This document shows positions 20,726 to 61,029 of a DNA stretch of 64,000 nt, one piece after another. This stretch comes from Gonapodya prolifera JEL478 (Eukaryota > Monoblepharomycota > Monoblepharidomycetes > Monoblepharidales > Gonapodyaceae): positions 171,718 to 235,717 of the forward strand of contig KQ965810.1 in assembly GCA_001574975.1 (NCBI GenBank), given 5' to 3'. The stretch's first letter is position 1, and each line of letters opens with the position of its first letter. The notes beneath the pieces were generated by a model, which worked only from the letters and a program-made list of their open reading frames with translations, did no database searches and was not told where the DNA came from. A program made the translations under genes and the position numbers.

Positions 20726-22244
20726 ATGGCATCAGACGAACAGGCGTTCGACTTCTCAGAGGTGCGTCGATAGCTTTGCTCCCCGGGCGGCGGATTGGGC
20801 GACGTCGAACAAGTGAACAAGCTTTCTCTTTCCACCAGCACCCTCATCGCCGTTACAACCCACTCACTGACACATGGGTGCTCTGCTCGCCGCACCGCGC
20901 TAAAAGACCATGGCTAGGTTCGTCCAAGAAAGCGATGCTGCGTTCGGAATCGGATCTGAATCGGTATCTGGTGAAATGTCGTTAGGCCAAGTTGAGTCAC
21001 TGCCCCCGGACAATCGTCCACAACACGACCCAACGTGAGTCGGCCGATTAAATCTACTTGTAGCAGACTATCAGATTTGTGTTTCAGGTGCTACCTATGC
21101 CCCGGCAATACCCGCTCCGACGGGGCGAACCAGAACTCAGACTACACGTCCACCTTCGTCTTCACAAATGACTTTGCGGCCGTCAAACTGTCTCAACCGA
21201 ACTACCATAACGAGCTAGCGAACACGGTCGGAACTGGTGCGTACTCATCTGCTGGTCGTACACCGTTTTCCAAGCCTTTACGAATCAGTTTCCAAAGACT
21301 CCGAGGCCCAATCCCTCCTCTCGTCCCTCCTCAAAGTCGAATCTGTAACAGGCACTTGTCGTGTCGTGTGCTTCAGCCCGCGGCACGACCTCACTCTCGC
21401 CGAGATGGAAACCGAGCACATCCAGGAAGTTGTACAAACGTGGACACGCGAGACGGAGGATCTGGGAGCCGTCCATGGAGTCAACTACGTGCAAATCTTT
21501 GAGAACAAGGGCGCGGCGATGGGGTGTTCCAACCCGCACCCGCACGGTCAGATTTGGGCGACGAGCGATATTCCAACCGAGCCCGCCCGCGAACTCGCAT
21601 CGCTCGCCAAGTACCGCGCATCACACGACGGAGCGTGCCTGCTTTGCAACTACGTCAAACTGGAGTCCAAGGTTTCTTCCGCCGCCAAAACATCCTCCAC
21701 GCCCTCCTCCTCTCGAGTCGTCTTCTCAACCGAGCACTTCATCTGTCTCGTCCCATTCTGGGCCGTGTGGCCCTACGAAGTCATTCTCTTGTCCCTGCGA
21801 CACGCCTCTACCCTTGCTGAACTTACCCCCGCCGAGCAGCACGACCTCGCGGACTGTCTCCGCCGCGTCACGGCGCGGTACGATAACCTATTCGCGACCT
21901 CGTTCCCGTACTCAATGGGAATCCACCAGGCGCCCACGGCTGGGGAGCACAAGGAGGACGGGACGATGCACTTGCATCTGCATTGGTATCCGCCGCTGTT
22001 GAGGTCGGCGACTGTGCGCAAGTTTTTGGTCGGGTGGGTGGTGTTACGCTTTTTGCTTCACTGGCTTTTGTGTGACATTTTCAAAACTCACGTGTGCTGT
22101 GTGGGCGATTTATCCTTGCTCACCTTTGTAATGCTCCCAAACAGATACGAGATGATGGCCGAGGCGCAGCGAGACTTGACCGCCGAGCAAGCTGCCGAGC
22201 GACTGCGGCAGTGCTCCGAGGTGCACTACAAGACCCGCGGGTGA
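20726..22244 (+). CDS. Galactose-1-phosphate uridylyltransferase
   Basis: The Leloir-pathway enzyme that exchanges UMP between UDP-glucose and galactose-1-phosphate in the cytosol. Exon 1 (ATG 20726) reads [12 protein letters not shown], then a GTGCGT intron leads to [20 protein letters not shown], the classic GALT start. [12 protein letters not shown] supplies zinc-ligand cysteines. The active site is [18 protein letters not shown], containing the HPH nucleophile motif. [19 protein letters not shown] and [13 protein letters not shown] follow, then [19 protein letters not shown]. The last exon ends [11 protein letters not shown]. Introns lie at about 20.76-20.84, 20.91-20.98, 21.03-21.09, 21.24 and 22.03-22.14 kb. 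Length is normal. No galactokinase or epimerase is visible in the window. Confidence 0.93.
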
Positions 22245-25881: not shown

Positions 25882-26902
25882 CAATAGTGGTGTGATTCGA
25901 TTGGGAAAACGGCAGGAACTAGGACGTCGTTTCAGAGCGATTCTCAAGCTCAAGGGGCCAGAAGGAGATGTGGCAATGTATCTGTAAGAAGGAGCACCGA
26001 ATTCGGATTGAATGATCGGGTTGGAGGTCGAATGTTTTCCACTCGGTTCCTTCAAATTCTGGTCATATGTGTTGTCAAAAGCTAATGGGACAAGCCTTCA
26101 CACTCGTCCCGAAAAGCTCGTAACTGCCACTGAGAAAAGCACGATAATTATTTTAACGCGTCGTGTGCAAGTGACTTCGACACGCTTGACACACATCACC
26201 TAAGAAAATCTCACAAATAATATAGAGCCTACCCCACAAATTTAATTGTAAGTGGTGCCGCATTGTTGCGCACTGCTTTGCGATGAGCATGCCAGCGATA
26301 CTGCGGTCACGTGGGTGGCGTCCCATTTAGCCGTGCCGGGATCGAACCGCGACTCAAAGTACATCTCCCCGACCCCGGACTATTCTATCTACAATTACCC
26401 AGACTATCAGCTACGCCGCAGCTCCTTTGACATTATGCTCATTCAGTACTTGAAGGGTAAGAGAACAAAATCGGTATCAAACTGAGGGACAGGGACTTGA
26501 CATCCATTTGCGCAACATTTGTATTGAAGCCGTTCCTTGGCGATGGGAGCATACAACGGAGATTTTGATGGCGGCGTGAAAATATCAAACCTTTTTGATC
26601 TATTTCAGCTGCCGCAAAGGCGTCAGTGCCAAGTGGTTGTCATCATGTGACATGACGTACAGGCAGGCTGATGAAGCCAAACACCACCAAATGTGGCGTT
26701 TAAAACATTCAAGTGAAGGAGGATCGGCGATTTACCGAGTTATTCTGCCTTTTCTTTTCTGAAACTGCAAGCAAAGTTCAGATTTCTCGTCTAAACTCAC
26801 GGCACGTTCGGCCTCGAAAAAGAGCCGATGTGCCGCGCCACAGAAGGGCTCCAGATAAACCCGTGACTGCAACCCAACGCGTCACCACATCGCGCATCTC
26901 CA
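25882..26902. other. Divergent promoter region between LHS1/HYOU1 and malate synthase
   Basis: About 1 kb shared by two divergent genes. It includes AT-rich stretches near 26.13-26.25 kb. I find no gene; the short open frames lack domains. Confidence 0.45.
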
Positions 26903-28933
26903 ATGGGTCTCCAGACTATTCCAGGCGTCCAAGTGCTCGCTCCCGTCACCCCCGTCCAGGCCGAGATTCTCTCCGCCGAGGCACAGTCATTCCTCGCGAA
27001 CCTGCAGCGCGCCTTCAATGGCCGCCGGAAGGAGCTGCTCCACCGTCGCACCCAGCGCCAGGCCTACCTCGACAAGGGCGGCCTGCTGGACTTCCTGCCC
27101 GAGACCAAGCACATTCGTGAGGACCCCAGCTGGAAGGGAGCACCTCCTGCGCCAGGCATGGTTGACAGAAGGGTGGAGATTACCGGTCCCGTCGACCGGA
27201 AGATGGTCATCAACGCCCTGAACTCGGGCGCGTCCACGTACATGGCTGACTTCGAAGGTGAGACTTGTTGTTTGCTCCCGTCACCCTCGCGTGCACGGAA
27301 CTTTCCGCGCGGCAAGGGATGTCATCACAAGCCGATGTCATCGAATTCGCTCCCGCTGACTTGTATCTCATTCTTTCTTCCAAAACCATCCTATTCTAGA
27401 CTCCAACGCCCCCACCTGGGAGAACAACATCCAAGGCCAGGTCAACCTCCGGGATGCGAACAACAGGACCATCTCCTTCACCGATGCCGCCCGTGGCAAG
27501 TCCTACAACCTCAGGAGTGATGGAAAGCTTGCTACGCTCATCGTTCGGTGAGTAAACCTCCCCTAACCGCTGCTCGAATCGGAAGGTAGTAAACTGACAT
27601 GTGATTTTTTGACACCTCCCCGCTTCCGTGCCGTTCTTCACTCCGAACGATCATATTTTCAAACAAAGACCTCGTGGATGGCACCTGGAGGAAAAGCACG
27701 TGCTCATCGACGGCGAGCCTGCTTCCGGATCCATCTTCGACTTCGCCCTGTACTTCTTCCACAACGTCCGTTCGTCGGTCGCCAACGGCACCGGACCGTA
27801 CTTCTACCTCCCCAAGATGGAATCCCACCTTGAGGCAAGGTTTGTAGAATTCCTCCGATTATTTGGATGAAATGGATGACTCAATGAAAACATTGTTTCC
27901 GCTAGACTCTGGAACGATGTGTTCAACCTCGCTCAGGACCTCTTGGGAGTCCGCCGCGGAACCATCCGGGGAACCGTTCTCATCGAGACCATCCCCGCCG
28001 CCTTCGAGATGGAGGAGATCATCTACGAGCTCCGCGACCACTCTTCCGGGCTCAACTGCGGCCGCTGGGACTACATCTTCTCCGTCATCAAGAAGTTCCG
28101 GTCCAACCCTGCCTTCGTCCTCCCGGACCGTGCCGACGTCGGCATGACCGCTCCCTTCATGGACGCCTACGTCCGCCTCCTCATCCAGACCTGCCACAAG
28201 CGCGGAGTCCACGCCATGGGCGGTATGGCTGCCCAGATCCCCATCAAGGACAACGCCGCCGCCAACGAGGCCGCCATGACCAAGGTCCGCAACGACAAGC
28301 TCCGTGAGGTGAAGGCCGGACACGACGGAACATGGGTTGCCCACCCCGACCTGGTCAAGATCGCCATGGACATCTTTAACCAGAACATGCCTTACCCCAA
28401 CCAGGTGCGTCTCTCAGTGTTGGCAACCGAATTTTGGATTAGTGATTTGACATCACTTGCTCCTTCAATAGCTCTTCGTCCGCCGCGAGGATGTGTCTGT
28501 CACCGCCGCCGATCTCCTCAACACCCGAGGATTGGGCGGAAAGATCACCGAGAACGGTATCAGGAACAACACCGAGGTCGCCCTTCGGTACATGGAGGCC
28601 TGGCTCAGCGGCAACGGATGCGTGCCCATCCACAACCTCATGGAGGACGCCGCCACCGCCGAGATCTCCCGCTCCCAGCTCTGGCAGTGGCAGAAGAACG
28701 CGGCCAAGACCGCGGAGGGCAAGATCGTGACCGTGGACTACCTGGCCAACATCCTTGAGGACGAGACGGCCAAGATCCGCAAGGCGATGGGAGAGGCGGC
28801 GTACAAAAAGTCAAAGTTTGACCAGGCCAAGAAGTACCTCGGCAGCACCATCCTCACCGAGAACTACGCTGACTTCCTCACCACCCTGTGCTACGACGAC
28901 CTCGTCACGGTCAGCAAGCAGCCCCGCCTGTAA
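26903..28933 (+). CDS. Malate synthase (glyoxylate cycle, peroxisomal)
   Basis: Condenses acetyl-CoA with glyoxylate to malate, allowing growth on C2 compounds and fatty acids. ATG at 26903 ([20 protein letters not shown]). Family blocks are all present: [69 protein letters not shown] and [20 protein letters not shown] (catalytic Arg and Glu). [18 protein letters not shown] follows, then [15 protein letters not shown] and [20 protein letters not shown]. The C-terminal domain carries the catalytic aspartate in [13 protein letters not shown]. There are four introns, all in the usual short class. The last three residues are PRL, a non-canonical form of the SKL-type peroxisomal signal. Length (about 540 aa) is typical of eukaryotic malate synthase A. 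No isocitrate lyase is visible nearby. Confidence 0.95.
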
Positions 28934-44123: not shown

Positions 44124-45845
44124 ATGTCGCTCAACCTCACCTCCGTCGCTCTGCCCGTCCCCTTTGACGGTTTCGTGCGTGCTCCCTTCTCTTCCCTCTT
44201 CCCTCTCTCGCCTTCCTCCTTCTGATCCGCTCTCTCTCTCTCTCCCCTTTCCCCGTCTGCCCCTTCCTCCCCCCCGCACCCCCCTCTCTCCCCTCCCTCT
44301 CCCTCACAGGGCACGTCCCTCGCCTGGTGGGCAAACGGCGTCCTCTCTCAACCCGCACTCGACCGCATCCTCGACCTTCTCTTCTCCCCCACCCAACTCA
44401 ACCTGGCCATTGCCCGCTTCAACATTGGGGGCACCACCGACCCTACAAAGAACCCAAACTTCCGCACGGGGGCAAACGTCCCCGCCGACACGGCCATTTC
44501 CCCGCAACTCGCCGTCATGCAGCGCATCGTGGCCATCCGCTCTTCCTCCGCTGCCCCGCTGCACGTCGAGGCCTTCTCCAACTCCCCCCCGCAGAACCTC
44601 ACCATCTCGGGCACCTCGGCGGGCGCGGCCCAAATCCAAACCGATTGCATCACACCCGCAAACGTCCCCACATTCGCCCAATTCCTCCTCTCCAGCGTGC
44701 GCACACTCATCTCCTCAGGCGTGCCCGTCGAATCACTCTCCCCCATAAACGAACCCTCCGAAGTCGTCTGGGTAGCCGGAAACACCCAAGAAGGGTGCTA
44801 CTGGTCCAAAGACAACCGCGTTTCCCTCGCCACCACCTTACGCACCCTCCTCGCCTCGTCAGGCACGGGTGTCAAACTGGCCCTAGCCGATGAAAACAAC
44901 CCTTCGGCCGCGGTCGACAACGCCTACATGCTTGCCTACGCCGACCTGGTCAACATCCACACCTACACCGCGGCCCAGTTCACAAACTCATCCCTCGCAT
45001 CCTCCCTCGCCGCGTCCCAGGACACGGACGCCATCCGCGCCTCTCTCCTCTCCTCCTTCCGCTCCTCCACCCCCGCCTCCACCACGCGCAAACTCATCAT
45101 GTCCGAATACACCCTCGGGGGCACCATCGCCTCTTCCTCCCCTCAATCCGTATCCTCGCACGCCGTCGGTCTCATCCGCCACGTCGCGCGGGACTTGGCC
45201 ACCTTGCAACCGGCAGCGTGGGTGTACTGGCAGGCCGTGGAGGACTCTACCTCGGGCACCAACTACGGGCTTGTGCAGGCCCCATTCACGAATGCGGGGG
45301 AGGCGGGGGATGTGATCCTGGGCGCCCAGTACTACGCAATGTGGATGCTGACCCGCGTGCTCCCACCGGGAACGACCAAATTCGACCAGGTCTACGACAC
45401 GGCCCGCGTCGCTTTATCCAACCCCGCCGCTGGTACTATCCTGTTCGCAAACAGCGGCGGCGGGGATCCCTCCTCTGCCACGGGGGGCGGGGCACAGGCC
45501 ACGTTCTGGTTCCCGCAGCAGACGGGCCAATTCAACGTCACCCGGCTGCAGACCACGAACGGCGTCGCTACCCTGACCGCCGTGGGGTTCCAGACGGGAA
45601 CTCTTGGGGCCGCTGTGGCGATCGCGGCGGGGACCGTCGAGTTGTGGGTTGGGAACCCGAGTGCGGCGGTTGGGTTTCCGTCGAATGCGTCGGCCGTCGC
45701 CTCGACCGGGGGAGGTGCAGGGACGGGGGGGGGAGGGGGGAAGGGCGGTGCGGCGGTAGTGGGTGCGGCGCCCTTGTCCATGGTGTGGACCCTACTCTTG
45801 TGCCTTTTGGTGGCGTTGATGGTGGTGAGGAGTCCGAGGCGGTAG
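44124..45845 (+). CDS. GH30-family glycoside hydrolase with C-terminal membrane anchor
   Basis: Exon 1 (44124-44174) encodes MSLNLTSVALPVPFDGF. A 135-nt pyrimidine-rich intron (GTGCGT...CACAG) leads to GTSLAWWANGVLSQPALDRI, giving 528 residues. GH30 marks: GFGTSLAWWA, ARFNIGGTTDP, acid/base Glu in LSPINEPSE (about residue 164) and nucleophile Glu in IMSEYTLGG (about residue 282). PAAWVYWQAVEDSTSG and a beta-rich C-terminal region with NVTRLQTTNGVATLTAVG follow. The protein ends with a Gly-rich linker and a hydrophobic helix (LSMVWTLLLCLLVALMVV) plus RSPRR, so it is membrane- or GPI-anchored. Closest remembered subgroup: endo-beta-1,6-galactanase-like enzymes. No signal peptide is visible from this ATG; an upstream start or exon may supply it. 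Confidence 0.82.
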
Positions 45846-48900: not shown

Positions 48901-51099
48901 ATGGCACTTGCAGAGCAGGAGGTACCTCTCGATGGCCTGCAGGAGGAAGAGGAGGACGAGGTGAGCTTTTCAGCGGGCGCTATGACGTTGGAATGAGGGT
49001 TGGTGGGTGTGAGAGTTGCGTGGATACCAAGGAAGCCCGGAGAGGGATTGAAAGGAGCGACAGAGAATGAATTGGACTGCGGCGAGTGGATATTTCTGAG
49101 AGAAGTAAGGTTAAGGCAGGACAGAGTTTGTTGGGACTGATGGCTGCCTCGTTCTCACAAAACGTTGACTGTGCGGTTACCATCACCACCTTCACCCACA
49201 AACTGCCCTACTTTCCTCGCATAACATTATCTCCCAAACCACTACTCAGCTTTTCTTTACCGACGTTGACGAGCTCCAGAAGCAGGGAGTTGGAGCGGCA
49301 GACAGTGAGTACAGTGGGAAGTCAATTTCGGGATGATTCACAAGAGGATGTCATTCTCCTCAACCCATACACTGTGCGCTCACTTCCTGCTGCAACTTTT
49401 TATATTTCCTCAGTCACAAAGCTCAAGGCTGCAGGCATCGCAACTATCAGAGGGGTGCAGATGGTCACCTCCAAAACCCTCCTCAAAATCAAGGGCCTCT
49501 CCGAGGCAAAAGTGGACAAGATCAGAGAGGCTGCCAACAAGGTCATGAGCGCTGGATGGTGGGTACACTTCTCTCCCCTTCACACTCATCCTCCCAAGTG
49601 TGACATTGCCCCATCTAGGGTCACCGCATCCGAGGTTGGCATCCGCAGGCAAAATGTCCTCCAAATTTCTACAGGCTCTAAAGAGCTCGACAAGTTGATC
49701 GGTGGGGGTGTGGAAAGTTTGTGTTCCGTCCTGCCACATCGCCGCCTGTCCATTTCTCACCTGGGACATCGATCTATCACGGTTCGCCAAGCAGCCATGT
49801 CCATCACGGAAGTATTCGGCGAGTTCCGCACGGTGAGTAGAGAATCAGACTTTGGGATCGCTCGAGCTGCCTGGCTCACGAATCCCCACCTCCTTTCGTC
49901 CTTGATATCAACACCCCCATGACCCTAACTCCTTCCACGCCTTTTGCACTTATAACAGGGCAAGACTCAACTCTCCCACACTCTGTGTGTCACCTGTCAA
50001 CTCCCTCGATGTGAGTTTCGTTCACTGGCCTGTTTTCTCTCCTTCCTTGCTCACAATGCTCGATTACTTCGGTTAGCCATGGGCGGCGCCGAAGGAAAAG
50101 TTGCCTTCATCGACACGGAAAACACGTTCAGGCCAGACCGTGAGTTGATCTGAGTTGACTTCCAATGCCAACACCCCCTTTAATTCAAACACCTAAAATC
50201 CAATCCCTTCTCTCTCGGTGCATACACTTCAAAATCACCACGCAATTTCTCTGTCGGCCGTCTCCAGGTATAGAAAAGATCGCCGCTCGTTTCGGAGTGG
50301 ACGGTGAGGCGTGCAAAGAAAACGTGAGAAAATCGAAGTTCTACCGAAATTGCCACTCGAATTGTATTCTTATCGTTGCTTTGATCTACTTCACCCACCA
50401 CATCGTACCCGGACACCAGATCCTCGTTGCCCGCGCATTCAACTCGGAGCATCAAAACGACCTCATCTTTGAACTTGGCGCCCGCTTTGCCGAAGAACGT
50501 GGAGCTTTCCGCTTACTTGTGGGTTTCCCTCGGTTTTCTCCGGTCCTTTGCCTCTTATGTAGTGCGTTGGTCGCACCTCAGATCATCGACTCCATCATCG
50601 CCCTGTTCCGAACTGATTACTCGGGGAGAGGAGAGCTGGCGGAGAGGCAGCAAAAACTGGGACAGCAGCTTGCGAGACTACAGAGACTGGCGGAAGAGTT
50701 TAACGTGGCTGGTGCGCAAGGTTGTTGAGCGGTTACAGTTTCGGATTTTCACACGCTTGCTATTTTCACCCCAATCAGTGTTCATCACGAACCAGGTCTG
50801 CTCCGACCCAGGAGGTGGTATGACCTTTGTTGCAGACCCCAAGAAGCCTGTTGGAGGTTTGTTGCCCCCTCAAAACACAGAGGATCGGTCACATTACCAA
50901 GTCACTTACTCTTATTCCCCCCCTCCTTCCATTGCACCCACTAGGAAACATTCTCGCCCACGCATCCACCACGCGTCTCTCTCTCCGCAAGGGTCGTGGT
51001 GAGCAGCGTGTGGCCAAGGTCTACGACAGCCCTGACATGCCTGAGGCGGAGGCAGTGTATGCGCTTGGAGAGGGCGGGATTGTGGATGCAAAGGATTGA
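48901..51099 (+). CDS. DMC1: Meiotic recombinase DMC1
   Basis: RecA-family recombinase for strand exchange in meiosis. ATG at 48901 ([20 protein letters not shown]), then [17 protein letters not shown] and the helix-hairpin-helix [19 protein letters not shown] and [19 protein letters not shown]. Next come [20 protein letters not shown] and the Walker [21 protein letters not shown], split by an intron inside the motif. [49 protein letters not shown] (Walker B) and [20 protein letters not shown] follow. [40 protein letters not shown] and [20 protein letters not shown] close the core, ending IVDAKD. The EGGIVDAKD end and the TENTFRP context favour DMC1 over RAD51. About ten short introns. Its presence implies meiosis in this fungus. 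Confidence 0.92.
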
Positions 51100-51343: not shown

Positions 51344-53234
51344 TCACCACCTCCCATGCACGTGCTTCCGAATGTAGCTATCGTATACCTCTTGCACGTC
51401 TTGCATCTGCTTGTCGGTTAGTGGGGAAAGCTGGGCGGCTGACACGTTGTCGAGGACCTAAAGATTGGAGGTTGGTGGAAACAAAAGGAAGGCTTAAAAC
51501 GTGATACTCGGCACTCATTTCTTTTTCCTTACCTGCCCCTTGGTCCGACATCCCGGAATAACCACACTGACACCTTGAAACATCAGAATCCACCTCAACG
51601 CGAACGCGCTCAAGGGCACACCACCCGCGATCTGCTCCAATTTCCCAACAGCGGGAAGCGCGGTGTCCTCGAGCACGTGCCCAAGCCCAGACCAGGTCTC
51701 CCCCGCGTCAAACACCTGCCCCGTCTTGTTGAACGTGCGGTGGTCCGAGTCTGCTAGGGACGAGATGTAGCTGGGTGTGATCTTGCCCGTGAGAAGCCCC
51801 GACGCAAGTGGGACGCGAGGAATGATGGCGACGGATTTGGACTGGGCGAGGGGAAGAACCTGGAGAGCGAATTGGTGTTGTGGAGATAGTGAGTGTGATC
51901 GGTGGGTCGTGCAAAGCTACATGACATAACCAACGCACCTGCGCTGCCACCTTGAGTCTGAACGCGTTGAAAATTATTTGTATCGACGCTAAGTCGGGAA
52001 CGTTCTGGTGGGTGGTGAGGGTGGTGTTACAATGTTTGGTAGATGGAAGCCGACCGCGAAGAACAGTATAAGTGGATTAAAAGAGCGAAGAGCGGGGTTG
52101 GAAGGAGAAATACCGATCAGCTCCAGCTGGGTTTACGGCTTTATATGAAACCCGATTCCTTGCTACGGTGGTAACCCCCTTCCCAGGCAACCACAGGCTT
52201 CACCACATGCTCTCTCTATCTGTCATCAGCCTTGCGCCCGAGACTGGGCTTACCAGACCACCACCGCTTACTTCTTTTCCCTGTGTAAGCTCCAACCCTC
52301 GAAGCTCACAACCCACTTCCATCGACGCGCACCACTTCTTCATCTGCGAACCCACCTCCAAGCACCACACGGCCTCTTCGCACGTCTCCACGCTGACCCC
52401 GAAATACTGCAGCAACCGATTCTCGTCCCGGAGTTTCCGCAGCGCGTCGAACACGGACCCATCCTGAAGGACGGAGAAGGGAGGGCAGTGCAGCTGGAGA
52501 AGGTCGAGAGTGGTGACGCCTAGGCGGCGGCAGCTGGGGGGTTGAGTGAGTGGGATGGGTGCGCGACAAATATCGTGTCCAGAAAGAAGCACCCGTTTTG
52601 ACTTCTAACTCGGTACCGCGATATATGCTCCAACAAGAGCTCCACTTTCCACCTCAGTCAAACATCAATTGTCAAATTTGATTCTTGAGGAGCCCCTCAA
52701 AGTGCTATCTGCCGGCTGCGGTGGCAGATTCTTTGACCCTCGTCGCTTCCACATCTTCTGACGCCAATTTCTTCTTACCTTCCCTGAGCTGACGCCTTGA
52801 GTGCCTCGTAAGTATAGTTCTGCGGACCGTGAGGTTGGGACGAGATCGGGCTTTCGACATCCCCGTGGCACCTTCCAGCCTTGGTGAGGACGTAAATCTT
52901 TGGTGCGTCGGGGGGCCGCTCGGCAAGCACTTTCCCGATGATGCGTTCAGAGGTGCCATCGCCGTATACGTTTGCGGTGTCGAAAAGGTTTCCACCCGCG
53001 TCGAGGTAAGCCTTTGCGGCCTCGATGGACTCGGACTCGGTGGAGTTCTGCCAGGATCCACCGGGACCTTGGAAAAGCAGGGGCGATGTTGGACGGCCGA
53101 ATGAAAATGTTGGAGAATTGAATCGAGCAGCTTCTCGGTCACTTACCAGCGAGCTGCCAGGCACCGAATCCGATTTCTGAGACCTGCCAGCCAGTCTTAC
53201 CGAACGGGCGAAGCGGAATGGAGGTCACGGTCAT
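51344..53234 (-). CDS. Aldo-keto reductase
   Basis: ATG at 53232-53234: MTVTSIPLRPFGKTGWQVSE then IGFGAWQLAG, a standard start. Exon 2 has GGNLFDTANVYGDGTSERII (catalytic Asp and Tyr) and APKIYVLTKAGR (Lys). Near 52.52 kb is LDLLQLHCPPF (His). Later exons give SVAIIPRVPLASGLLTGKIT, SAFALRWILMFQGVSVVIPG and a C-terminal helix DKQMQDVQEVYDSYIRKHVH ending GRW. The tetrad Asp-Tyr-Lys-His is complete, so an NADPH-dependent carbonyl reductase is expected. Introns near 53.08-53.15, 52.58-52.80, 52.0-52.26, 51.86-51.95 and 51.46-51.53 kb. Physiological substrate unknown. Confidence 0.85.
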
Positions 53235-53824
53235 CGTCGCGTGGGGGTGATTGAGCGTCGATCACAGAATGGGCTGATCGAGAGCTCGGGTTTCCTTCCG
53301 AAGTCATGCTTTTTTCTGGCCGAGGATGTCCACACCGCAGCGGAGTGATGATCACGTTGCGCGGGGGCTTCGAAAGAAGCACCTCGTGGGTAATACATTT
53401 GAGAAGAGTGGATTCGAGTTGCGAGTTCGAGAGCTGTCGTTATCTGCGTGTAGAATTTCCCCCCCCTCCAGGGCCCGCGGAAGACTATATTTTGCATTAT
53501 CTTTTTTTAGCTGACGGAAAAAGATTTATTGGAGCGTTTTATTGCGTTTCAGTCGTGCGACGCATCCTTCACATTGTTGTCATGCAGCATCCATTTCCAC
53601 CGATTCTCACATAACTTTTACACTTGTTAACTCTGGTTCTCTTTGAAATACAAATTGACATACTACTCGATAATTGAGCTTTTATCACTGCTAAAAACAC
53701 ATAACTGAAAAACATTTACAAGCAGACAAGCGAGGTCACGTTACAAATGACCAAACAAAAGAGACTCTTCCCAACAGCAAGACCGCGATACAACACCACT
53801 TCCATCCCGCATCCCTCAACGCAC
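53235..53824. other. Intergenic, AT-rich
   Basis: Promoter side of the aldo-keto reductase and 3' flank of the RdRP gene. AT-rich from 53.50 kb. No gene seen. Confidence 0.45.
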
Positions 53825-56800
53825 TCAAACGTCCTCCCCCTCGTTAGTCCACTCGATTCCACTCATCCCCGCCTCCACGGGCACCTCATCCACATTGAAT
53901 CCCGTCCTGAAGCCCACCGACTCGACTTTGAGCCTCATCAAGGGGGCGAACTGCGCCGCGACGCTCAACGACGGGCCCTGCAGCGACCCGGCCAAGATTG
54001 AACGCAGTTCGTGCCCGCACACCTCCCACACGTAGCTGCTGCGGCTGTGCTTGTAGATGAGTGCGGCTTTGAGCTTGAGCAGCCGGTCGCGCCCGTTGGT
54101 GCCCCGCAGGGCAAGCGAGTGCAGTTCTTGGTCGGCAGGGCTGGTTTCGAACAGTTGTCGGAACCGCGCCATCACGGCGTCCCGCCCAGTCAGGCCCTTC
54201 AAAACGGTGAGCTCGTTTTCCACGTCGGGGTTTTCGGGGGCGGCTGCTTGAGCGGAGGATGTGGGTATGGGACCTAGTTTGGCGTTGAGCTCTTCTTTCC
54301 AGTAACCGGCCCAGAGAGGAAGCTCGGTGGCAAATATTGAGTCCCGCACCAAACGCATGTCATGAGCCCAGTGCTTGTCCGATCCGAACAGGGCGTCGTC
54401 ACGGTCAAAGTATTCAATAATTTCGGGACTGAAGACCAACCATCCAGGATGTCAGCACGAGCACAACAAAATGCCCGTGAGAAACACGACTCACCACTGG
54501 GTAGCCTTGCTCAGTCCAGCCACGCGCTCTTGCAAAAGTTGATCGGATCCGGCAGCCAACTCATGCAAGAAGCGAGCGTACTTGGGCTGCGTGGCGGCGA
54601 CCTGTTTCGCCTTGCTGGATCCCGTCTTCCACCAAACAGGAGGCTGGCCCTTGTGATGCTTCAGAAAAAAGTCCTTGTGCATCTTTTCGACCTCGGAGTT
54701 CAGGAACTCGCCATTCTTCCGAGCGTCTAAAAGTCTGGATTGTGTCGACATGCGTAATATTCATCAGCAAGGTTGGATTCTCCAATCCACTTGCGCGGCG
54801 CAAAACCGACTCACCGAGCCGCAATATGGGCAAATCGTAATGCTGACGGACTGTCCATCCCCCATTTATCCACCGCAGCAGCCCACAGCATCGTGTACCA
54901 TCCGACCTTGGCATTGGTGGCAGTAGACCACTCCAGGACGCCCCGTGCCAAGAGTGGCCGGCCGTACTGCTCTCCTGTATGGTCCTTTACCAGATCCTTG
55001 ACGACCTCTTTTGATTGGGAGAATGATTCTTCCACATCATCGGGCGTCTTCGGGACGTCCCGCTGGCACTTGAACGAGTCGACAATTTCCTTGAGCCAGA
55101 TAACAACGGCTCGGTCCCCGTCGTAGTCACCCCCGGCAATGCGCGAGGCCTCGCGAACGTCTCCTTCAACCTGGCGAGCAAGTGTTTATCACCAAACTCT
55201 ACCATGTCGTTCATGGTCACACGTGACACTCACAGACATCATGCACACGTCATCGTATCCTGCAAGTTGGGGATAGTCGCGGATGTCGGCCACCCTGAGC
55301 TTTTGTCCGTCTGTGGGAAGCACGGCCGGGTTTCTCAGGATGACGACTTCCCGGCCTGCAAGAGCATTGGTGAACCCTGGAACTTGAACCAAAATTTCAC
55401 CCTCTTTGAGAGTTCCTTTTGGGGCAGGAACAATGGTGTACATTCCGGCCTCCTGGATGGGAATGTGGGCGCTGGTCCACATTGGGGAGAGTTTCCACTG
55501 GATGTGATCGACGAGTTTGCTCCGAATGTAAGGTTCTTTGGCGTCAAAGCCAGCGCAAAGGTTGTGCGCAAGGCGACTAAAACCAGACAGGCCTGCTGAC
55601 ACAGGCTGGGTCATGAGCGCCTGGATCGCGTTTGGGATCATGTTGGGTTGGAGGAATGTGTCGATGAGAGTTTCTGTGGCTTTGGCCTGCAACCAAATAA
55701 TGTCATGTGGCAATAAGGCGGATACGCGATTGTCGAATTTCAACACACCACAAGATTGCGAAACGGCTCTTCAGGCACACCACCGCACTCCAACACGTTC
55801 ACCAGCTGCTGATTTAAATTAGCGAGGCTGACGTGTGTGAGCTTATATGGTATTGGGGGAGTAAATTTGAAAATTTCGAGCCAAACAACAATCTTGCGAC
55901 AGCGTATGAGTAACTTACAGCGACAACCTCCAAAGTTCCCGGCTGGCTCAATTCTTCTGGCGGAGAGACATACTTGTGCATCGACTTTCTAAATGCGATG
56001 TCGGGCTGTTGATTGCATTCAAGGTGTCCTTTTTAGTGGTCGTCACGAATCATATCGCCCTGCACCGAACTTCAACCCTCACCGTACGCCCATTCAGCTC
56101 CTCCCTCCTCGTCCTCCCAACTTCACCCAGCTCGTCTGTCCTATCCATCACGAGGAGGCCCTTGAACCCCAAGTAGCGGATCTGCATCGCATTGGGGAGA
56201 GACCCAGTGCGCCCAAGGGCACTGCACACGTGCTCCATCACGCGACGACTGACCAGCCCCGCGCCGTCTGTCATAGCCTCCCCCGGGTTTCCCGCTGGGT
56301 GCACGTCGTCGAGGTCGTACACGATCGCGATATCAGGCGGGAGTTGTACTGCGTCCGTGGAGCTCCCCCAGAGATCTAAGCGGGCAAGGAACTTGCCCGT
56401 GAGTTGGGACAGGTTGCGAGGAAGAGGGGGCATGTGGCGCGAGAGAAGGAGCCACGGCGGGAGAAGGTCCGGGAGGTGCGCGGGGCGGGAAGAGTGTGCG
56501 GAAAGAAGATATATCCCATACTGATGGGGAGTTGGTATGTGGATTAATAGCGACCAGCTCGTGTTCACAAGGTCAAAGGACTCACATCTGTCGCGGCTGC
56601 ACGCATAGATACCGCTTCTCTGTCCCCCTGATAAATCAAAGCATGTGAGATCTTTTACGCCTTTCACACCACACGCGCAACTCTTTCACGTACCTGCACC
56701 ACCTTGAAATGCAAGAACTCAAATACGCCACCTGCCAACTCGACCGTCCGGAGGCTTTTCTTGATGGACCTTCTTTTCTGGTCTGGCTTCTCTCCTGCCG

Positions 56801-57409
56801 ACTTTCCCTGGACTTGTCCCTTGCCTTCCGGCTGCGGGTCAGACGCCACCATCCCAGCATCCACATACACCTGCAGCACGCACGACGATCCGACACAACG
56901 CAGGAGGCGGTTTCCCTTTGCCAAGATAAGTGGGGGAATCACCTCGACAGCCAGCGTGGTCACCGTGTCGTTGTTGGAGTCCCCGCTGCTGATGTTGGTA
57001 CTGGGGGAGACGGGGTACACCCGCATCCCGTAGACCAAAGTGCCTTTCAAGAACGCCGTCGATGGTTCAACCGGCGGTGGTGAGAGCGCGGCGATGGTGT
57101 CGTAACCCGGGTTCAGAGACGGGATTTTGCCGCCTCTGCATCTGAGCAGGGTCCACGCGGGGCGGAACCCGTCCCATGTAATTGGCACAGTGGAGGCGGT
57201 CTTTGCACTCTCAACCGCTGCAGCGCCCGCGAACGCATGAAGCACTCTCCCGACAGCATCAAATGGGCCCTGCGGGTCGTTCAGAGCCGCAACGAGGATT
57301 GCGTCCATCGCAGCCGGGTGCTCGTATGCGAATGCTCGATAGCGCGTGGCGTCAGTGGTTGTGGTTATGGTGAGTGGGTAAAGCAGGGCCAGGTGGAGGG
57401 TGTACACGA
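53825..57409 (-). CDS. Eukaryotic RNA-dependent RNA polymerase (RNA silencing), C-terminal part of a probable chromodomain fusion
   Basis: Copies RNA into double-stranded RNA for Dicer. Motifs in order: LAKGNRLLRCVGSSCVLQVY, VVQ-GDREAVSMRAAATD across an intron, LTGKFLARLDLWGSSTDAV, EAMTDGAGLVSRRVMEHV and AMQIRYLGFKGLLVMD. After another intron: PDIAFRKSMHKYVSPPEELS (the RxSMxK signature), then REVVILRNPAVLPTDGQKLR and VADIRDYPQLAGYDDVCMMS. The catalytic loop IAGGDYDGDRAVVIW lies at about 55096-55137, with DYDGD matching the family DxDGD. TGEQYGRPLLARGVLEWSTA and the last exon (IEYFDRDDALFGSDKHWAHD) complete the domain to a stop at 53825. Every catalytic element is intact. No ATG lies near the start of the coding-like frame; the first in-frame ATG (AAMDAILVAA) is about 25 codons inside it. 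Upstream the same frame runs into the chromodomain segment. Confidence 0.88.
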
Positions 57410-57580
57410 CTGCGGAGTGGGCGAGTAAATCGGTTGTGGGTTCGAATTGAAAACGAAGCGATGTGTCATAAATGCGAATGACAATATCAAAGTCGAGTCA
57501 GTCAGGTGAACGCACAACCTGTTCCCAAACACCACTTATTCCCCAATCCACCATGCCCCCCTCCCTGCCGATTGACTCAC
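57410..57580 (-). other. Predicted 171-nt intron joining chromodomain and RdRP frames
   Basis: Donor GTGAGT, acceptor CCGCAG. It removes the in-frame TGA at 57498-57500 and keeps phase 1 on both sides. It is longer than most introns nearby. The unspliced sequence is also open apart from that single TGA, so retention would give a truncated chromodomain-only protein. Confidence 0.55.
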
Positions 57581-58765
57581 CGTCCCAATCCAGCTGCGTC
57601 TCACACATCTCGGCCAAGTGCTGCATTGTGGCGGACGCGCGGTGGCCCAACGAGGGACCACGTACGTCTGCGGTGGGGAGCAGGACTTGGTAGGATGGTT
57701 TGGGTGTAGGAGTAATGGAGGTTGGTGGTGGTAGTGCAGCACGCTTTGGTGCGGGGAGAGCAGCCTCAAAACCCCCATCATCGTCGTCCGGGCGCTTTCG
57801 CTTGAGTGAGTTTGAAGAGGGCGGGAGAGGGAGAGTGGTTGTGGGGTTTATCATCCGGTGTGAACTAGAGTCCTCCGGGAGGTTGGGTGCACCTGGCAGC
57901 ATCGCATTCGGCTGCCCCTGCGCCTGCGCCTGCAGGGTGCCACGGAGGCCGACCTGGAACTGGGAGTTTGTGTTGATGGGGACCATTGCCGGGCGACTGC
58001 GCTTCTCTGCACATCGGAGGTCGTATGCGGCCACCTTATCGCGGTCTACTTTGAGGAGTTCGTGGCGGGGTTCCCAGGTCTGGGTTTTTTTTGAGGTGAG
58101 AGAAATCCGGTGTAAGAACAAGAGCAGAAGCCGGAGTGGGAGTAGCAGCACAAGTGGGAACAGGAGCAGGAGCAGGACAGCAAGTGTCAGCGACGCTGAA
58201 ATGGAAACTGAGCCTGTCGAAATCTCCCCTCCTCCACCACCAAGTGCACCAACACGATATATTCCCCCTCCCCCCACCACCTTCTCCCCTTTCAAGTAAG
58301 AAAAACTCACGTCTTTCCATTCACTCTTTCCTGCCGGATCGACCCATGAGACCTTGTACCACCAGCCTTTTTGGCCCTTTACGTTTTCGCGAGCCTTGAA
58401 TGCGCCGATACGGCGATTTGACCATCTGCGATGGAAGTCTTTGAGCACGCCGTAGTCTGTAAAAACCGATTTGGGCTCCCATGTCTGTGAATCATTTGCA
58501 TGTGAGGCCGGAGGTCGGATGTTAAGGTGATGGGAAGAGCGCTCACGTCGTCCCAGATGCGGCCATCCGAGGGATCCCACTCAACACGGTAAAACCGATC
58601 AGCGTCGCCCGGGTCCTTGTAGCCGTAAGCGTTGATGCGGCGAACAGACCTGCGTGCAGGTGAAGGCAGGCAGGAGTGAGGGCAGGCAATGCATCCGTGG
58701 CAGAAACTGGATGCCTACCATTCGCGATCGCCGATCGAGTCTGAGCTCGAGTCCGGTTCGGCCAT
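57410..58765 (-). CDS. Tandem chromodomains, probable N-terminal part of a chromodomain-RdRP fusion
   Basis: Exons 58765-58719, 58649-58547, 58484-58311 and 58079-57581 splice in frame. After MAEPDSSSDSIGDREW, chromodomain 1 reads SVRRINAYGYKDPGDADRFY then RVEWDPSDGRIWDD, and across an intron TWEPKSVFTDYGVLKDFHRR. Chromodomain 2 reads NRRIGAFKARENVKGQKGWW then YKVSWVDPAGKSEWKD, and across an intron TWEPRHELLKVDRDKVAAYD. Both keep the Y-x-V-x-W and TWEP core that forms the aromatic cage for methyl-lysine. A linker with a nuclear signal (SLKRKRPDDDD) leads to QHLAEMCETQLDWDG. A GTGAGT donor (57575-57580) and CCGCAG acceptor (57410-57415) then join GAC-G to TC-GTG of the RdRP in phase. Unspliced, the frame hits a TGA at 57498-57500. 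An acidic stretch upstream (to about 58930) may extend the N-terminus. Confidence 0.75.
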
Positions 58766-59975
58766 TCCGCATGCAATCTGGCAGAGGTGTGGGCCCCATT
58801 CTGCAGCCTCACACTGGCCTCCTGCGGACTCACAAAATGTAAGTCTCAATTCTTCTTCTTCCTCCTCTTCCTCCTTCGCCCTTTGGCGGTCATGGTCCAA
58901 ACGAGAGTGAAGGTCGTGAAAATAAATTAACTGGGAGGATTGTAGCTGTTTTCATTACTCATTTGCATAACAATACATGCTTTTTACTGAATGTACAGCC
59001 AGATTCTGCGAAACTGGACTGCGGATACGCAGGATGCCACTTGCAAACTTCATTTCTCATTATCTTCCAGGTTGTTGGGTTGGAAGACATCGACCTCTGG
59101 ATGTCGCCCACAGTCCTCCCAAACAGAACATAGGAAAATGGTGCCCCGCTGTGAAAAGAACAGTGGTACCAGAACAGGTGGAGACGCTATACATTGCTTC
59201 TGTTTCTTTATTGATTCTGTCTCAAGGTAAAACTGCACATGTACAACTGAGAGGCCCACTATTACATTTTCATTTTGCGCTTTCATTGGCGTGCTTCGTG
59301 CTTCTTCAGCGAGGCGCTGCTCACAACAGTTGCGCCAGCAGCAGGCCTCTGATTAATCAATTTGTTCGCTTTGATGGAAGGTGAAAACGACGCTCATAGG
59401 TTCAGTCCGCGAGCAGCAAGTGAGGACTACTCACTTTTGATCACGTGAGCAGCGGTGAACTTGTCTTGTATGTATACCGCCCACTTCCGTCACAATAGAC
59501 CTTCGTCTTTTCAACCAGGGCTCAACAAGCAAACGCACTTTTCGCATCGCTATGAGAGCAACAGTGGTCTGGCGATACGAAAGAAAGGCGTGCACTTGAT
59601 GTGGATCGGCGACACTGCAACGACACGTGCTGCCATTATTGTGGAATCAATGCCGCAACGATCACCCCCAGACAAGTTAGATAGCGCACCTTGCGGGGTT
59701 GAGATGAGCTGCTTTTTATGGTTTGCCGCTTGAGTCGCCCATTGAATGAATAATTAGGCTGCAAAATGATGGACAGGGACAAGTCCTGACCAATTTCGCT
59801 TCACCCCTTCCCGTCCCATTTCCTCTTTCCCACACTGGGGATTACTATGACCAAACTTTGATATGCGATGTCTACCGTGCTCGCTATTCCATTGCTGCAG
59901 AAGTGACGGTATTGCGTCAAGGGAAGGAGAAGAGGACATCCCTGTCCTTGGCGCCTTGGCGGTGCCTTACCTGTT
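58766..59975. other. Promoter side of the chromodomain-RdRP gene, and intergenic
   Basis: The first 165 nt may be coding on the minus strand (acidic Glu run). Beyond that I find no gene; open frames lack domains. A GC/AT mix typical of intergenic DNA. Confidence 0.4.
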
Positions 59976-61029
59976 ATGAATTGCCTTTATCTCAGGGAAT
60001 CCGCCTTCATCTCCCGCCCGCTCTCTCGTCTTCCAAGCAAAGTTCATTCCATATGCGCGCTTGCTGCGTCCCTCACTCTCCTATGCGCTCTCTCCACACG
60101 CGTGGCGCCAGCAGACACAAACCTTTCTTCACTTGTCTCCAAATTTGCAGCAAACCCATCTGTCGGCCCAACGGCAATGGCCTACTGCTCCTCCATTCTC
60201 TCCATCAAAATGCCTGGAATTGCATTCACTGGCACGTCCACCCACTACGCTCACACGGCCACATCCACAGTCTTTGTGGCCGCACATCCAATGACCACAC
60301 TCATCACAGTCAGGCAAGTTCTCTCCATTCTGCCAGAGCGTCCGCTGGTTTCTTGTTTATTTACCAAAAATTCAATCTTCTCCCATCAGCAAAGTTCCTG
60401 CTCCAACTGCGTCACCACCGCCATCCCAGTTGAATATACATCTGTTTCAAAGCCCCCCTGGCTTCCCTGCAAACAACTCTGTGCCTGTGTCCTGCGCCTG
60501 TTTGTGTCTTAATCTGACAACACCACTGCCAGCTCTCACAAGCTGCAGACAGACACAATAACCCTTTTGGTGCTTGCCATGCTATATCTTACTTCCACTA
60601 CCACAGCAACCACTTCCACAACTACGGCAACCACTACAACTGCCATGGCAACCACAACCGCAATAACAACTACCACCATGATGCTGTGCCCTTCCAGACA
60701 ATTAAACTGCAAAAACACATGCAAGAGCCTCAAATCAGACAACTTCAACTGCAGGTCATGTGGCTACATGGTACTTTCAACTATCACCTGCATTCTTTTT
60801 CCCTCAGGCTCAGCCGGTCCCAACATCCCTATTGCCCACTTGCCACCACAGTGACCCTCCAGCTCCACCTGCCAGGGCAGATTCTGCACCTACACCACAC
60901 TATGCAACACAACACCTGCTCTACCTGGAACAAGTGGTTGCTTTGTCCAGATTGACTACTTTGAAAGATGCACATACATGGGCAACCTGACTGTCAAGGT
61001 GGACAATGTCATGCCCAGTACCACATTTT
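59976..61029 (+). CDS. Predicted secreted Thr/Cys-rich protein running into a CpG-depleted island
   Basis: From ATG 59976 the frame gives a hydrophobic leader (VHSICALAASLTLLCALSTR) followed by VAPADTNLSSLVSKFAANPS and GPTAMAYCSSILSIKMP, a pattern seen in small fungal secreted proteins. At about 60314 an AG|GCAAGT site looks like a GC-AG donor, with acceptor CCATCAG near 60390. Spliced, it continues KVPAPTASPPPSQLNIHLFQ and PVSCACLCLNLTTPLP to a TAA near 60560. Further right another Cys-rich segment, TCQGRFCTYTTLCNTTPALP then GCFVQIDYFERCTYMGNLTV, ends at TTF-stop (61029-61031). It could be a later exon of the same gene. A Thr-rich simple-sequence stretch (60590-60680) lies between. Exon structure is uncertain and the 3' half may be decayed. 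Confidence 0.4.

Follow-up and report, generated by a model that had tools for sequence, protein, structure and literature searches.

A probable single gene uniting two divergent chromodomains and a QDE-1-like RNA-dependent RNA polymerase in Gonapodya prolifera

A 64,000-nucleotide stretch of the Gonapodya prolifera JEL478 genome (contig KQ965810.1; hereafter the window) carries on its minus strand what is very probably one gene, in which a tandem of chromodomains is fused to an RNA-dependent RNA polymerase (RdRP). A first-pass annotation had proposed this fusion, and its coordinates, strand, two TWEP motifs and GGDYDGD motif were all recovered when the sequence was reread. The fused architecture, as proposed, is well supported at the level of sequence, because the gene has introns in common with two RdRP-less paralogues, shows codon bias across the junction between its halves, and has no detected copy of the C-terminal motif with which the paralogues end. 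We read the product as a chromatin-tethered, QDE-1-like RdRP with a tandem chromodomain N-terminus encoded by a single gene, and assign this reading a probability of roughly 0.6. Given the fusion, a role of the chromodomains in tethering the enzyme to methyl-lysine, most likely methylated histone H3 lysine 9 (H3K9me), is likely.

The gene was modelled by hand (Table 1). The genome searched was a 47.6-Mb assembly of 207 contigs, in which the window lies in contig C80. The fused frame is open throughout from an ATG at 58765 to a stop at 53825 on the minus strand, and 12 of the 12 introns have GT-AG borders. An in-frame stop at 58954-58952 precedes the ATG by 62 codons, with no in-frame ATG between the two. 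Codon usage was trained on Pfam-supported stretches (nine in the window and one exon of a gene on contig C46, described below), and by this measure the model frame ranks first of six in 10 of the 13 exons; the other three, of 42, 60 and 87 nucleotides, all lie in the RdRP half. That the halves were misjoined during assembly, or that the locus is a decaying gene, is very improbable: the gene region contains no N letters, the 1272 codons run without a stop, the intron borders and the catalytic motif are intact, and coding bias extends to either side of the joining intron, which would presumably be rare in a random join. What speaks for such an error or decay is that a sister RdRP on contig C13, translated with no gene model, contains stops in frame.

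A hidden Markov model search of the spliced product, which had been suggested as a check on the fusion, was borne out for one half: it found the RdRP family PF05183 (E = 4.1e-70; 237.5 bits against a cut-off of 23.8; profile positions 11-559 of 582) but left Chromo (PF00385) unmatched. The closest solved structures are QDE-1 and its homologues (PDB 2j7n, 7y7p and 5fsw; E = 1.1e-20 to 2.5e-18), after which RdRP 2 entries rank at about 4e-6. We describe this half as QDE-1-like, and its polymerase activity is predicted from the family. No RRM is listed by Pfam in the window product, the N-terminus of which is chromodomain-like instead. The genome holds at least four RdRP loci, on C1, C13, C80 (the window gene) and C111. 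By the pieces compared, the C13 locus is the nearest RdRP relative, with 50% identity over 149 residues, and open reading frames at C1 and C111 have RRM-like N-termini, recognised by eye alone. With no gene model applied, the C13 locus (L010, C13:185500-193000) shows frame changes in addition to its in-frame stops, and may be decaying or simply intron-rich.

The N-terminal half has two relatives in the genome, tandem-chromodomain genes on contigs C46 and C109. A genome search with the N-terminal 142 residues found the C46 gene (40% identity, E = 5.7e-9) and, weakly, the C109 gene (E = 0.03), which became clear when the C46 unit was the query (E = 1.2e-8). Compared as spliced products by two-sequence blastp, the window protein matched C46 at 2.9e-14 and C109 at 1.5e-13, and C46 matched C109 at 1.3e-22. 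A search for the RdRP family found nothing on contigs C46 and C109, and in the Pfam scan of the C46 product Chromo alone was found. The first intron of the window gene lies in a W codon (phase 2), and the second and third precede the first and second TWEP motifs (58484-58473 and 58079-58068; both phase 0). The C109 gene matches three of these three introns in position and phase, and the C46 gene two (the first and the third). The second C109 intron has a weak donor, GTCACA; an alternative GT 9 nucleotides upstream keeps phase 0 and leaves the acceptor before TWEP unchanged. These common introns support the 5′ part of the gene model, including the 231-nucleotide intron at 58310-58080, which is stop-free in frame and could be translated as a hydrophobic stretch; its interpretation as coding sequence was rejected, because both paralogues carry an intron of the same phase there. 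Because the third intron is common to the paralogues, exon 4 of the window gene is the counterpart of the last exon in the RdRP-less genes.

We identify the N-terminus of the window protein as two divergent chromodomains by way of its paralogues and of profiles, because the C109 homologue passes the Pfam Chromo cut-off of 25.1 bits (39.5 bits, in two stretches) and a profile of six family domains matches chromodomains of solved structure. At E <= 0.01, this profile matched 52 distinct PDB sequences, 51 of which are chromodomain proteins by name or known identity; the single exception is a lectin. A four-domain profile matched 52 sequences at E <= 1, three of them non-chromodomain (two antibody chains and one lectin), and a two-sequence profile of the window and C46 gave weak matches with a best E of 0.0092. 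When the N-terminal 162 residues were searched against the PDB by phmmer, CDYL2 aligned with chromodomain 2, also weakly (E = 0.029). The top matches of the six-domain profile include CDY, LHP1, Clr4 and MPP8, which are methyl-lysine readers. All six family domains have W at the first and at the second expected position of the aromatic cage, positions that we assigned on the presumed layout of HP1.

Several observations weigh against the reading of this N-terminus proposed here. In Cryptococcus neoformans, endogenous small interfering RNA (siRNA) production is independent of H3K9 methylation, according to excerpts from PMC6643885. The first-pass annotation had called two chromodomains with TWEP motifs; the motifs are present and the homology to the paralogues holds, but the domains are divergent and Pfam calls neither of them, whether in the full spliced product or in residues 1-75. 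The tandem alone reaches 17.2 bits, below the Chromo cut-off, and the second domain alone 12.2. The C46 product also stays below it at 16.8 bits (first domain alone, 22.0), and the window exons taken singly match C109 weakly (E = 0.02-0.05), a strong alignment being obtained with the spliced products alone. The third aromatic cage position is displaced rather than kept in its usual place, and differs from WKGY. Many divergent chromodomains bind things other than H3K9me, and the fusion could be real while its chromodomains recognise another mark, RNA, DNA or a protein partner, with the RdRP recruited elsewhere or regulated in cis. The divergence, the low Chromo score, the differing third cage position and the Cryptococcus precedent all favour this explanation. 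We nevertheless regard it as rather unlikely, given the two W cage positions kept throughout the family, the methyl-lysine readers among the best structure matches, and a SUV39/Clr4-like locus in the genome.

In-phase splicing was the main argument of the first-pass annotation for the fusion. A stronger one is that exon 4, the counterpart of the paralogues' last exon, remains open as far as the junction. The last exon of both C46 and C109 ends in a common C-terminal motif (58% over 26 residues, E = 1.8e-6), followed by a stop. The motif reads G-L-x-R-K-W-[ST]-G-V-E..W-S..M-x-W. It was not found in window positions 53001-61000, where the best match (E = 0.11) falls in the low-complexity linker. 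Exon 4 of the window gene instead runs without a stop from the second TWEP through a proline-rich linker to a GTGAGT donor. As the fusion point lies inside the exon that starts at the second TWEP, the C-terminus of the family would have been lost, with the RdRP in its place.

The donor GTGAGT (57580) and the acceptor CCGCAG (57410) had been said to join the halves in phase, and they do so through a phase-1 intron of 171 nucleotides. Among 27 frame-keeping GT-AG pairs enumerated for introns of 40-400 nucleotides, this pair alone combines a 6/6 GTGAGT donor with a CAG acceptor. In two further pairs (57604-57410 and 57515-57270), a 5/6 donor is matched with CCGCAG. The codon score of the entire exon 4 was reached by 0 of 1000 shuffles, that of its last 102 nucleotides by 4 of 1000, and that of the first 99 nucleotides of exon 5 by 16 of 1000. 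When these 201 nucleotides flanking the joining intron were combined, none of 1000 shuffles scored as high.

These results bear on the alternative that the locus consists of two head-to-tail units: a short chromodomain protein reading through the 57580 donor to a stop at 57498, and an RdRP starting in exon 4 or at the ATG at 57308, the fusion being an annotation illusion or one isoform. Seven in-frame ATGs (57986, 57902, 57854, 57626, 57608, 57308 and 57026) lie ahead of the Pfam RdRP match, which begins as late as residue 435, and the joining intron is longer than 10 of the 11 other introns of the model. The statement that the RdRP half has no credible ATG was too strong: the ATG at 57308 (M309), 126 residues ahead of the Pfam match, has a fair context with G at -3 and at +4 and is a possible start of a shorter RdRP, though coding signal extends upstream of it. 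The proline-rich block at 57782-57684 has an in-frame codon score of -0.17, and the 3′ 204 nucleotides of exon 4 are equalled by 52 of 1000 shuffles. For the part of the RdRP half that precedes the Pfam match, a phmmer search of the PDB with a 376-residue query gave 0 matches. The C13 locus aligned with the N-terminal RdRP part at a level equalled by 2-3% of shuffles, for a hand-chosen segment. One exon-4 segment compared with C13 was matched by 23 of 1000 shuffles, and longer segments, no better than chance, by 753 and 301 of 1000; tblastn of the product against C13 found no match over the N-terminal RdRP part. C13 was therefore dropped as a witness for this part, and for an intron in common at 57580, the alignments being suggestive at most. 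With no detectable homologue before the Pfam match and a weak C13 alignment, homology is no proof that the RdRP includes the 3′ end of exon 4. We still consider two separate units improbable: the frame has no stop from the second TWEP to the donor, the search for the paralogues' C-terminal motif at the window gene was negative, in-frame codon bias is seen next to the joining intron in both exon 4 and exon 5, ahead of the ATG at 57308, and any RdRP start within exon 4 would fall in the chromodomain protein's own frame.

The fused arrangement is present at one of the four RdRP loci detected and in one of the three tandem-chromodomain genes detected. The three other RdRP loci were each taken with about 3-4 kb of upstream sequence, and no chromodomain N-terminus was found there; in tblastn of the whole product, the best E over residues 1-125 was 1.9. 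Local alignment of either single domain with these loci peaked at 41-43; the longer tandem, by comparison, reaches 145 with C46, where shuffles average 34 and peak at 78. No relative carrying the fusion turned up, the collections available being prokaryotic, viral, phage, plasmid and Escherichia coli ones with no fungi among them. Scans of a viral contig collection with the chromodomain and RdRP alignments, and of a collection of genome contigs with the RdRP alignment, gave no relative. The one match in the genome-contig collection, in a proteobacterial metagenome-assembled genome (L038), was rejected as chance: it is limited to the surroundings of WDDTWEP (E = 0.005 over 25 residues with the window protein) within a long, bacterial-looking open reading frame, the C46 protein shares 7 residues there, and the RdRP has no meaningful match. 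No chromodomain-RdRP protein was described in the titles and abstract openings listed by a literature search, the scope of which leaves out domain-architecture databases and fungal proteomes. The string "chromo" occurs 0 times in the main text of PMC4290597, the funRNA survey of fungal RNA interference (RNAi) genes, and 0 times in the main text of PMC6396948. Both domains are of known kinds, and their combination is, as far as searched, undescribed.

Table 1. Features of the probable fusion gene, its tandem-chromodomain paralogues and neighbouring genes (window positions unless a contig is named)
Feature	Position	Strand	Basis or remark
Probable chromodomain-RdRP fusion gene	53825..58765	-	hand-built model: 13 exons, 1272 residues, no internal stop
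Exon 1, start codon into W16 codon	58719..58765	-	same phase-2 exon end within a W codon in C109 and C46
Exon 2, body of chromodomain 1	58547..58649	-	codon bias best of six frames
Exon 3, TWEP and helix of chromodomain 1, body of chromodomain 2	58311..58484	-	preceding intron at same position and phase in C109
Exon 4, TWEP of chromodomain 2, linker, chromodomain side of junction	57581..58079	-	preceding intron common to C109 and C46
Joining intron, phase 1, GTGAGT...CCGCAG	57410..57580	-	negative codon score in three frames; internal stop
Exon 5, N-terminal part of RdRP half, start of Pfam RdRP match	56694..57409	-	model, Pfam, codon bias
Chromodomain 1 (divergent), residues 15-71, interrupted by introns	58422..58723	-	homologous to C109 tandem; six-domain profile
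Chromodomain 2 (divergent), residues 71 to about 133, interrupted by intron	58005..58424	-	paralogues C46/C109; six-domain profile
KRKR...PKR basic stretch in linker, nuclear localisation signal-like	57741..57803	-	read from translation
RdRP domain PF05183, residues 435-1030, interrupted by introns	54620..56930	-	coordinates by hand from exon table
GGDYDGD catalytic motif (DbDGD), residues 886-892	55114..55134	-	aligns with GGDYDGD of QDE-1
C46 tandem-chromodomain gene without RdRP, 442 residues	C46:169775-171342 (L018 3776-5343)		hand-built
C109 tandem-chromodomain gene without RdRP, 299 residues	C109:121756-122831 (L019 2757-3832)		hand-built
Galactose-1-phosphate uridylyltransferase-like neighbour	21219-22241		
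Malate synthase-like neighbour	26867-28755		
GH30-like hydrolase neighbour	44226-45842		
Rad51-like neighbour	49071-50999		
Aldo/keto reductase-like neighbour	52778-53224		

The genes around the fusion gene appear ordinary (Table 1). Within the fusion gene, the basic stretch of the linker may serve as a nuclear localisation signal, to judge from its translation. Near-identical chromodomains occur on eight contigs (C193, C14, C104, C68, C35, C123, C161 and C9; L022-L029), one copy of them with a stop. They look like recently spread chromodomain-bearing retrotransposons, elements that RNAi and H3K9me would be likely to target.

To our knowledge, the coupling of RNA silencing to histone methylation beyond fission yeast is largely open. 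In fission yeast, Chp1 of the RNA-induced transcriptional silencing (RITS) complex and other chromodomain proteins bind H3K9me, RNAi components are recruited, and silencing spreads, as described in excerpts from PMC7763443. For the window gene, a functional coupling of double-stranded RNA (dsRNA) synthesis to H3K9me in one chain, in which we infer both the mark and the binding, is plausible because the genome has Piwi matches on 8 contigs, matches to the Dicer dimerisation domain (Dicer-dimer) on 2 contigs, and a SUV39/Clr4-like locus. At the last of these (C65:49382-50250), a chromodomain lies about 0.5 kb upstream of Pre-SET on one strand, an order that we take to be the layout of SUV39/Clr4 H3K9 methyltransferases.

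In the working that we propose, the chromodomains would bind a methylated H3 lysine, most likely H3K9me, at repeats and transposons, and the polymerase would thereby be held beside the nascent transcripts of these loci. The RdRP would, by analogy with its enzyme family, copy these transcripts into dsRNA, from which Dicer and Argonaute would, as in the known pathway, make siRNAs that sustain silencing and methylation. A stronger form of this proposal, on which we are evenly divided, is that the protein is a self-sufficient chromatin-reading RdRP, which would recognise H3K9me nucleosomes, make dsRNA from nascent transcripts and replace the bridge between RITS and the RNA-directed RNA polymerase complex (RDRC), while the RdRP-less paralogues could be adaptors or competitors at the same marks. 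If true, a fusion occurring in nature would show directly that a chromodomain reader works jointly with an RdRP on shared loci. It would also suggest that histone marks can recruit the RdRP part of the pathway with no need for Argonaute. The coupling of reader and RdRP could be tested in one gene, and the fusion predicts that the C46 and C109 proteins also belong to an RNAi or heterochromatin pathway.

Among known systems, Neurospora QDE-1 and its structural homologues resemble the catalytic half, which aligns with them including GGDYDGD. The window protein adds an N-terminal tandem chromodomain unit, and we know of no chromodomain described in QDE-1. The C46 and C109 proteins have a homologous N-terminal unit with common introns, whereas they end in their own C-terminal motif and the RdRP search was negative for them. 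Chromomethylases likewise carry a chromodomain inside a silencing enzyme, which is a DNA methyltransferase and not an RdRP; PDB 4fsx ("DNA (cytosine-5)-methyltransferase 1"), which we take to be the maize chromomethylase ZMET2, matches the family profile at E = 0.0092. PDB 3g7l ("Chromo domain-containing protein 1"), presumably Chp1, matches it at E = 0.0098, the chromodomain being the only link to Chp1 that was tested. The closest functional parallel would be Schizosaccharomyces pombe, where RITS (Chp1-Ago1-Tas3) and RDRC (Rdp1) show the same pairing of an H3K9me-binding chromodomain protein with an RdRP at the same chromatin; Chp1, Ago1, Rdp1 and Clr4 are described in excerpts from PMC7763443. 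There the reader and the polymerase are separate proteins, whereas in the window gene they would be one chain.

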